Shown piece by piece: positions 1,166 through 8,076 of a DNA stretch of 64,000 bases (the stretch's first letter is position 1; each line of letters opens with the position of its first letter). The DNA is from Asticcacaulis machinosus (GTDB lineage Bacteria; Pseudomonadota; Alphaproteobacteria; Caulobacterales; Caulobacteraceae), in contig NZ_JAQQKV010000002.1 in NCBI RefSeq assembly GCF_028550435.1, positions 868,001 to 932,000 of the forward strand. The letters are read 5' to 3'. The position numbers and the translations under genes are program-made. The notes beneath the pieces are model-generated. The model worked only from the letters and a program-made list of their open reading frames with translations, did not search any database and was not told the origin of the DNA.

Positions 1166-2074
1166 TTAGCCGATTTCGCCTCTGATGCGTCCCGACAGTA
1201 TCAGTTCGACCGGAATGTTATTGGCGCGAACCGCATAGCCGCCCGCTCCACCACCGCGCCCGCGATCGCCCAGACCGGGTTCGCCGTCGCGACCCGCATT
1301 GCCGCCGTTTCCGCCAGGTGTGGCATTGGCCATCGTACTTGCCGATCCGGACATGGGGGGTGGTATGATGCTTCCACTCCAGTACCATCCTGTCACTGAG
1401 TGATTATTGCCGCCACGGCCGGGGCTGTGGAGCGTACCCGGCCGGCCATTATTGGCACCGCCATTTCCACCGGAGCCGCCAATGCCATACTGACCATTGG
1501 GAAAGCCGCCCCCTCCGCCTCCGCCTCCGGGCGCGCCCTGGCCCTCTCCAATCGAGCCGCCGCTGACCTCAGCACCACCGCCCCCTCCGCCTCCGCCTTC
1601 AACAGTGCCGGTTTCAGCGATTACAATAAGGATGGGCGCACGCACATAGATGGCGTCGCCGCCTTTCGTGCCGGATTTTGCACCGGGGACAGGGCCGCCA
1701 TCGCCACCATTGCCGCCCCCACCATAGACCTTGCCGTTGATGGCCAACGCAAGATAAGCGGTGTCGGGCCAGTCGCCGGTATCGATCGCCGTTCCGCCGC
1801 CGGGTTTGCCCATGATGGTCGTCTGTTTTTCGACCACGAACAGGAAGTTTGCAGGGGATTTCCCGTCATATCCGGCCTTGTCGGCCAATGTCCGCAAATC
1901 GGCGGGTTCAGTGACCACTATGGTCGTCAGGGGCTTGGACATCCGATCCGGCGGCAGATTGGCGGTCACCGTCACGGTTGTGACATTTTCAGGATTATCA
2001 GGTTTGTCCTGAGCGGTCGCCGCCCCCGCTGCCACCCACAACGCCACCAGCAGCGCGCACCATTTTAATGTCAT
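1166..2074 (-). CDS. secreted glycine-rich protein with phage-adhesin-like layout
   Basis: 302 residues. The start at 2074 has a GAGGGGG ribosome binding site; an in-frame start upstream would add about 49 unlikely residues. A signal peptide (MTLKWCALLVALWVAAGAA, cut near TAQ) precedes a mixed region of about 100 residues. Blocks of four to eight consecutive glycines and GGNGG units follow, interrupted by short beta-like segments such as DAIYVRAPILIVIAETGTV. The C-terminus closes with AVRANNIPVELILSGRIRG. Alternating polyglycine blocks with a final hydrophobic strand and a G-R-I-x-G end resemble the glycine-rich receptor-binding domain of T-even phage Gp38 and related tail-tip proteins. Here the protein carries a signal peptide and sits among housekeeping genes. 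A surface or extracellular role is inferred; I do not recognise a named family. Confidence 0.7.
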   Translation of the reverse strand: MTLKWCALLVALWVAAGAATAQDKPDNPENVTTVTVTANLPPDRMSKPLTTIVVTEPADLRTLADKAGYDGKSPANFLFVVEKQTTIMGKPGGGTAIDTGDWPDTAYLALAINGKVYGGGGNGGDGGPVPGAKSGTKGGDAIYVRAPILIVIAETGTVEGGGGGGGGAEVSGGSIGEGQGAPGGGGGGGGFPNGQYGIGGSGGNGGANNGRPGTLHSPGRGGNNHSVTGWYWSGSIIPPPMSGSASTMANATPGGNGGNAGRDGEPGLGDRGRGGGAGGYAVRANNIPVELILSGRIRGEIG

Positions 2075-2091: not shown

Positions 2092-2128
2092 GTATAATTA
2101 TACTGTATACAACTGAGGCGCGTGTCAA
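2092..2128 (-). promoter_or_regulatory. putative promoter with palindrome upstream of the glycine-rich gene
   Basis: On the minus strand TTGACA (2128-2123) is followed 20 bases later by TATAAT (2102-2097), 23 bases before the glycine-rich gene's start codon. Both hexamers match the sigma-70 consensus, but the spacing is longer than the usual 16-18. The -10 lies inside a perfect 12-base palindrome, GTATAATTATAC (2092-2103), with a second GTATAC at 2105-2110. A repressor site overlapping the promoter is possible. The rlmH stop codon lies just upstream, so the gene may be transcribed on its own. Confidence 0.45.
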
Positions 2129-6933: not shown

Positions 6934-8076
6934 ATGGCCGATACTGCATCCATTTCCTCAAAGACCCCTGTGACGGTTCTGACCGGCTATCTGGGGGCGG
7001 GCAAGACGACGCTGCTCAACCGCATCCTGTCGGAAAACCACGGTCAGAAATACGCGGTCATCGTCAATGAATTCGGCGAAATCGGCATCGACAACGACCT
7101 GATCGTCGGGGCCGACGAAGAAGTCTTTGAAATGAACAACGGCTGTGTCTGCTGCACGGTGCGCGGTGATCTGATCCGCATCCTGCAAGGGCTGATGCGC
7201 CGTAAGGGTAAGTTTGATGCCATTATTGTGGAGACCACGGGCTTGGCTGATCCGGGGCCGGTGGCGCAAACCTTTTTTGTTGACGAGGACGTTAAGGCCA
7301 AGACCTATCTGGATAGTGTGACCGCTCTGGTTGATGCCAAGCACTTCAAATCGGCGCTGGATGCCGACCGGGTGGTTAAGGAACAGATCGCCTTTGCCGA
7401 TCAGGTTATCCTCAATAAGACCGATCTGGTGACGCCGGAGGAGCTGAATGAAGTCGAGGCCCGTATCCGCGGCCTGAACCCGCTGGCGACCATTCAACGC
7501 GCTGAGCGTTCGGGTGTCGATATCAAAAGCCTGCTGAACCAACACCGCTTTGACCTGTCGAAGATGGACGGCATCGCCAATCATGACGACCACGGCCCGG
7601 ACTGTGCCGATGATTGCGGCCATGATTACCATTACGATCATAGTCACCACCATCACGATCATAATCCGGCCCACGGTGAAGCTGGCCATGTCCATGACGA
7701 ACACTGCGGCCATGACCATCACCACCATGATCACGGTCACGCTCATGATCATGGGCACATTAATCCGATCCATGACAATGAAATTCGCTCGGTATCGCTG
7801 TCGTCGGACAAACCGCTGGACGGCGTGCGCTTTACCAAATGGATCGATCAGCTTCTGGCCGCTAAAGGCCCTGACATTCTGCGCGCCAAGGGCATTATCG
7901 ACGTGGCCGGCGAAGATAAGCGTCTGGTGTTTCAGGCGGTGCACATGATCCTCGAAGGCGAACTGCAAGCGCCGTGGAAAGACAGCGAAAACCGCTTCTC
8001 ACGCGCGGTGTTTATCGGCCGCCATCTCGATGAAGTGGCCCTGCGCGCCGGTTTCGAAGCCTGTATCAAAGTTTAA
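6934..8076 (+). CDS. CobW/COG0523 family GTPase with histidine-rich metal-binding loop
   Basis: 380 residues. This is a G3E-family P-loop GTPase: Walker A GYLGAGKTTLLNRI, switch NEFGEIGID, the metal site NGCVCCTVRGDL (the CxCC hallmark), Walker B ETTGLADPGP and the guanine motif NKTD. Residues about 216-285 form a hydrophilic insert packed with His and Asp plus a few cysteines (HDHSHHHHDHNPAH, CGHDHHHHDHGHAHDHGH). The CobW C-terminal domain ends the protein. COG0523 members deliver or insert zinc or other metals into target proteins. The histidine content favours zinc here, but the metal is inferred. A WD40 gene follows after a palindromic repeat. Confidence 0.9.
   Translation: MADTASISSKTPVTVLTGYLGAGKTTLLNRILSENHGQKYAVIVNEFGEIGIDNDLIVGADEEVFEMNNGCVCCTVRGDLIRILQGLMRRKGKFDAIIVETTGLADPGPVAQTFFVDEDVKAKTYLDSVTALVDAKHFKSALDADRVVKEQIAFADQVILNKTDLVTPEELNEVEARIRGLNPLATIQRAERSGVDIKSLLNQHRFDLSKMDGIANHDDHGPDCADDCGHDYHYDHSHHHHDHNPAHGEAGHVHDEHCGHDHHHHDHGHAHDHGHINPIHDNEIRSVSLSSDKPLDGVRFTKWIDQLLAAKGPDILRAKGIIDVAGEDKRLVFQAVHMILEGELQAPWKDSENRFSRAVFIGRHLDEVALRAGFEACIKV

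Follow-up and report, generated by a model that had tools for sequence, protein, structure and literature searches.

A Gp38-like polyglycine-II protein, predicted to be exported by Asticcacaulis, shares a promoter motif with candidate plant hydroxyproline-glycoprotein genes

We propose that Asticcacaulis, a soil and plant-associated bacterium, has domesticated a phage-type receptor-binding module as a stand-alone exported binding protein, here termed P0001. A phage-adhesin fold that now recognises a hydroxyproline-rich glycoprotein of plants, or else the plant wall, is the best explanation overall, and we give it about an even chance of being correct. The fold, homology, selection and shared upstream motif of P0001 were computed, and we infer its export, regulation, ligand and final location. 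The source genome is that of an Asticcacaulis close to A. endophyticus, and the window referred to below is the whole 64-kb stretch of it that was analysed.

Protein layout and fold

P0001 is the 302-aa product of an open reading frame at window positions 1166-2074 on the minus strand. Residues 1-22 (2009-2074, minus strand) read by eye as a Sec/SPI-type signal peptide, cleaved between A-T-A and Q and without a lipobox; the N-terminus is MTLKWCALLVALWVAAGAATA, followed past the cleavage point by QDKP and a linker of ~25 residues. The module itself spans 255 residues, in which glycine blocks are interrupted by short strands. Its C-terminal end is VELILSGRIRGEIG, closing with GRIRGEIG. The signal peptide, the polyglycine blocks with short beta segments and the GRIRGEIG end that had been picked out by a sequence-only reading are all present in the frame. 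The module opens with a conserved head (residues 48-104; 1763-1933, minus strand) of the form xxLRxLAdxaGYdG...F.V...i.G..GG..iDTGxWP, which is common to the tail-tip proteins L048 and L054. Structure and profile place a Gp38-like polyglycine-II sandwich at residues 105-302 (1169-1762, minus strand), and the head also falls inside the region superposed on gp38 (model residues 41-302 against gp38 25-249).

An AlphaFold2 model of P0001, built from 24 aligned sequences, has a pLDDT of 81, with 185 residues at or above 90; its low-confidence parts are the signal and linker and two loops. Only gp38 structures in the PDB match this model by Foldseek at E <0.001 (2e-7 for phage S16 and 6e-9 for PP01). 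By VIA-align, the model superposes on 6f45_D with a Z of 21.3 (2.7 Å over 204 residues, 31% identity) and on 9v85 with a Z of 20.8, the next-ranked structure reaching 8.2. The polyglycine II sandwich foreseen from the sequence is thus borne out by a confident model that superposes on both S16 and PP01 gp38, with an ordered polyglycine core rather than disorder.

A viral structure library yielded 15 phage proteins matching the model at E <0.001, several of them named Gp38 or tail fibre. Phage likeness extends to the sequence, which PHROG 11439 (tail fibre) matches at E 5e-15. The Pfam GP38 family (PF05268) matches P0001 at E 5e-4 with 20.4 bits, under its curated 25-bit cut-off, and matches 13 of 14 relatives at E <=0.1 (best 3.8e-9). 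A profile of the 14 relatives recovers the phage domain from the PDB, with an E of 1.8e-8 for S16 gp38 and 0.008 for PP01 gp38. An HMM built solely from two phage-derived tail-tip sequences scores P0001 at 103.9 bits. The reversed protein scores -32.7, none of 200 shuffles exceeds -9.4, and none of 200 ten-residue block shuffles exceeds 24.8. Likewise, the family profile scores the gp38 segment at 28.4 bits, its reversal at -13.2 and block shuffles at no more than 9.5. Because these reversed and shuffled controls score low, residue order matters to the match; an artefact of glycine composition was ruled out on these grounds. Single-sequence searches with P0001 found no match in the PDB by phmmer, where the family profile did, no relatives among viral contigs, where only a profile search succeeded, and none among named phages, where the low-complexity filter masks glycine. 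There was no NCBIfam match. With the PHROG, phage-only HMM, family-profile and structure matches all in agreement, the proposed link to Gp38 stands, and the model makes a Gp38-like polyglycine-II fold for P0001 essentially settled computationally.

P0001 and T-even Gp38 (PF05268; S16 6f45, PP01 9v85) are alike in their polyglycine-II sandwich, protruding variable loops and conserved glycine scaffold. Gp38, however, is phage-encoded and sits on the gp37 tip, whereas P0001 is a bacterial chromosomal gene with a signal peptide and chromosomal neighbours, with no gp37 partner and no phage genes seen. Our paper searches found no Gp38 polyglycine-II sandwich reported outside phage tails, and to our knowledge there is no such report. 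By description, P0001 can also be likened to the PE_PGRS proteins of Mycobacterium, which are likewise secreted and glycine-rich and have been discussed as polyglycine-II (PMC7830552), but which differ in taxon and architecture.

Conservation and variation among orthologues

A. endophyticus, G068 and UBA2476 each have an orthologue of P0001 at this locus; identity is 80-92% and whole-gene dN/dS 0.11-0.23, and P0001 is therefore a real, constrained gene. In nearly all comparisons the glycine cores and head have dN/dS of 0.03-0.18, with a single head value of 0.33. Variation is concentrated in two regions, both with indels. Residues 169-184 (1523-1570, minus strand) have 2-7 of 16 positions identical between orthologues and dN/dS of 0.35-0.98; from this variation and low pLDDT, they would be the equivalent of a Gp38 recognition loop. 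Residues 200-252 (1319-1477, minus strand), which include the P0001-clade insertion NHSVTGWYWSGSIIPPPMSGS, have 23-36 of 53 positions identical and dN/dS of 0.18-0.39, and residues 221-250 have AlphaFold2 pLDDT of 50-66. P0001 pairs a glycine scaffold kept by purifying selection with hypervariable loops, the same pattern as in Gp38, which is defined by conserved glycine-rich motifs alternating with hypervariable segments and contacts its receptor through its loops (PMC12529663, PMC12892980).

Genomic contexts of the module

Sequence inspection places the P0001 gene between rlmH and an EnvC/LdpF-like M23 gene, with rsfS, nadD and obgE as further neighbours. A. endophyticus (L030), G068 (L062) and, within contig reach, UBA2476 (L031) share the rlmH/EnvC-like placement. 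A prophage remnant at the locus was dismissed, as no phage genes were seen among the neighbours. Elsewhere in the window (6934-8076, plus strand) lies a CobW/G3E-type GTPase-like protein with a long histidine/aspartate-rich stretch, HHHHDHNPAHGEAGHVHDEHCGHDHHHH, which is probably metal-handling.

The module occurs in 17 of 199 genomes sampled from the same family, every one an Asticcacaulis (17 of 25 genomes of that genus), in 16 of 299 sampled from the order and in 2 of 385 from the class. Four contexts can be distinguished. Besides the P0001 clade at rlmH, Asticcacaulis has paralogues that adjoin genes for GH127, GH43, Svx/DUF6055 and TonB receptors; the paralogue in the source genome adjoins a GH127 gene and an Svx/AvrXca-family peptidase gene. 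In a third context, found in Hyphomonadaceae and some Asticcacaulis, the module adjoins large RHS genes, either joined to a signal (often Tat-like, by eye) and a YD/RHS segment or following Ig-like repeats. The fourth consists of phage or prophage tail-tip proteins (L054 from IMG/VR and L048 from Sphingopyxis flava), which share the whole module with P0001, including the LRxLAdxaGYdG head, DTGxWP, a GGGGFPNG-like block and the closing strand. In these, the module closes a far longer tail protein at its C-terminus, whereas in P0001 it is free-standing and predicted to be exported. Two tandem, more diverged copies in G288 (C40; L072, L074) are apparently phage tail-type genes.

In an unrooted maximum-likelihood tree, the stand-alone Asticcacaulis proteins form a single clade (100/99). 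Since the fold is widespread in phages, transfer from phage to bacterium is the simpler reading; this direction rests on phages being the wider carriers, as the module tree cannot be rooted.

In the RHS-linked proteins (Tat-like signal, YD/RHS repeat and module; L042, L044, L046 and others), the module is the same, at ~40-47% identity. They differ in their extra YD/RHS segment, their RHS neighbours and, in some, a second T2SS. In G075, G080, G104 and G133 the RHS islands are accompanied by a second secretin and by T2SS genes that are absent from the source genome. No RHS repeats were found in the source genome either, which ruled out P0001 as a partner of RHS proteins there. Asticcacaulis islands at L041, L046/L068, L057 and L059-L061 combine a second T2SS set (GspD, E, F and G), RHS-repeat proteins whose C-termini differ (Ntox28 in one of them) and proteins in which the Gp38-like module is joined to a YD/RHS segment or Ig-like repeats. 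Such islands have the appearance of an exported RHS system, so far undescribed, whose tips are of phage type. Near these islands, short proteins with a signal and a single YD/RHS unit (L057:5271-5744 and L041:3213-3524) have a different C-terminal tip or none, as if the YD segment were a common base for exchangeable tips.

A shared upstream motif

Upstream of P0001, 24 bp 5' of the start codon, lies a 14-bp operator-like motif, TTGTATACAGTATA (2099-2112, minus strand), which is GntR/FadR-like and identical in four P0001 orthologues. Its half-sites agree with the GntR/FadR pattern TKGT/ACMA. A TTGACA kept in orthologues (2123-2128, minus strand), 20 bp from a TATAAT, is tentatively a -35 element of the gene's own promoter.

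Searched as TTGTATACNRTATA, the motif has exactly five sites in the genome, belonging to P0001, three GH127 beta-L-arabinofuranosidase genes and a DUF885 peptidase gene. Allowing up to one mismatch raises the count to 13, and the reversed control then gives 1. One-mismatch sites precede a TonB receptor gene and lie between DapA-like and D-amino-acid-oxidase-like genes, a pair that adjoins genes for a 4-hydroxyproline epimerase (NF010578, 514 bits against a cut-off of 376) and a prolidase-like M24 peptidase. Another lies 58 bp 5' of a GntR-FCD regulator gene, which is consistent with autoregulation. A few of the one-mismatch sites (C1:981197, C1:1517518) look unrelated. Pooled across five genomes, the exact sites number 16, of which 9 are no more than ~220 bp from a GH127 catalytic domain and 3 fall directly 5' of a module gene. 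A weight matrix trained on 20 sites, none from module genes, marks a sole place at or above 19 bits in the 64-kb window, the site 5' of P0001; the reversed window has no such place. Across 319 kb of other Asticcacaulis loci it marks nine places, eight directly upstream of module genes and the ninth before a TonB receptor-like gene. At L059:10360 and L057:8722 this motif also precedes two RHS-linked module genes, so the islands that hold them could respond to the same signal.

GH127 enzymes act on beta-L-arabinofuranosides of hydroxyproline-rich glycoproteins (PMC10850190), Svx of Pectobacterium is a peptidase with extensins as likely substrates (PMC9266454), and HypR is an autoregulated GntR/FadR repressor of hydroxyproline genes (PMC5343134, PMC6608401). 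Because of these substrates and the HypR-like pattern, the motif-linked set, including P0001, reads as a plant hydroxyproline-glycoprotein utilisation system. P0001 carries the shared promoter motif expected of a HypR-like regulon; its gene and the degradation genes do not form an operon. We think it probable that P0001 belongs to this set. Mere co-occurrence with GH127 is uninformative, as GH127 is found in all 25 Asticcacaulis genomes. A candidate locus for the use of plant hydroxyproline-rich glycoproteins, sharing the TTGTATACNRTATA motif, lies at 244-281 kb of C3 in G000 (L056, L124, L125), and encodes GH127, an Svx-family peptidase, a TonB receptor, DUF885, 4-hydroxyproline epimerase, a prolidase-like M24 peptidase and GntR/FCD regulators.

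Export and competing explanations

The predicted signal peptide makes it very likely that P0001 is exported. The T2SSG marker was not found in the source genome, and export by T2SS was dismissed for that reason; with no RHS repeat, P0001 also falls outside the T2SS-secreted, RHS-associated class. The genome's only secretin, judged by inspection, sits in a Tad/Cpa-like pilus cluster. Given these two observations, surface display is uncertain and a purely periplasmic role is possible. The earlier idea of the same fold at work on the bacterium's own surface is well supported as to a place outside the cytoplasm; exposure at the surface is less certain.

Several other functions could account for such a protein. 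P0001 might be a general surface adhesin for other bacteria or abiotic surfaces, its co-regulation merely mirroring a plant-associated life. Gp38 is itself an adhesin for outer-membrane proteins (PMC12892980), and relatives that are RHS-linked and bear Tat-like signals hint at functions in contact with other cells, yet among the sites examined the motif is shared with catabolic genes and not with pili or holdfast genes, and we consider this explanation unlikely. Rather less probable still is a receptor-masking defence, in which P0001 would cover the cell's own outer-membrane receptors and block phages with Gp38-like tips. Its fold and homologous module match those of the alphaproteobacterial phage tips L048 and L054, its loops are hypervariable, and there is a precedent in E. 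coli, where StfE2, a prophage-derived tail-fibre chimera, blocks T2 adsorption, with gp38 escape mutants (PMC12529663). However, the shared motif and family context indicate plant glycoprotein use, most module genes outside the P0001 locus accompany GH127/GH43 or RHS genes, and no known defence gene was noticed beside P0001. Phage defence by mimicry, as first suggested for this gene, finds no local support.

That P0001 works in the periplasm alongside the neighbouring EnvC/LdpF-like murein-hydrolase activator, for instance to remodel the cell wall or a prostheca, we regard as very improbable. That gene lies 40 bp downstream on the same strand, an arrangement kept in A. endophyticus and G068, and no convincing terminator was found in the 40-bp gap. 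Against this, the paralogues and L006-L009 are not beside an EnvC/LdpF-like gene, a conserved motif and a possible promoter of its own precede P0001, and the downstream genes probably serve core cell functions and merely flank the insertion. The part in prosthecae that the sequence-only reading had also suggested is similarly unsupported, the promoter motif pointing to plant material and the use of plant hydroxyproline-glycoproteins.

Proposed role and significance

Under the plant-glycoprotein explanation, a probable HypR-like GntR/FCD repressor would control P0001 together with GH127, the TonB receptor, DUF885 peptidases and 4-hydroxyproline catabolism. Hydroxyproline or a derivative would derepress P0001 along with the TonB receptor, peptidases, beta-L-arabinofuranosidases and hydroxyproline enzymes. 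The signal peptide would take P0001 across the inner membrane, and its rigid glycine lattice would display the variable loops as a binding face. These loops may bind plant hydroxyproline-rich glycoproteins (extensin-type, beta-L-arabinosylated) or glycopeptides, and so anchor the cell to the plant wall, or hold substrate back for use by the TonB receptor, glycosidases and peptidases. Plant material is suggested as the target because the promoter motif is shared with plant hydroxyproline-glycoprotein genes, and the case for a plant glycoprotein or wall component as the ligand seems to us evenly balanced. Since relatives elsewhere adjoin RHS genes, a plant glycoprotein as ligand cannot hold for every member of the module family. 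We offer more tentatively, and think somewhat doubtful, the narrower proposal of a dedicated plant hydroxyproline-glycoprotein binder under a hydroxyproline-responsive repressor, whose fast-evolving loops would have shifted their target from outer-membrane receptors to plant extensins. Packing of the polyglycine-II lattice against the polyproline-II helix of the substrate is conceivable as well.

It appears, then, that a phage grip has been put to new use in plant feeding. Whether a phage receptor-binding fold was domesticated can be tested directly, and P0001 represents a new candidate for the recognition of plant cell-wall glycoproteins. A single module is common to phage tips, RHS-linked bacterial proteins and plant-glycoprotein loci, and a bacterial protein family, probably exported and confined to Asticcacaulis within the sampled family, would use the Gp38 fold, with a promoter motif that ties it to a specific nutrient.
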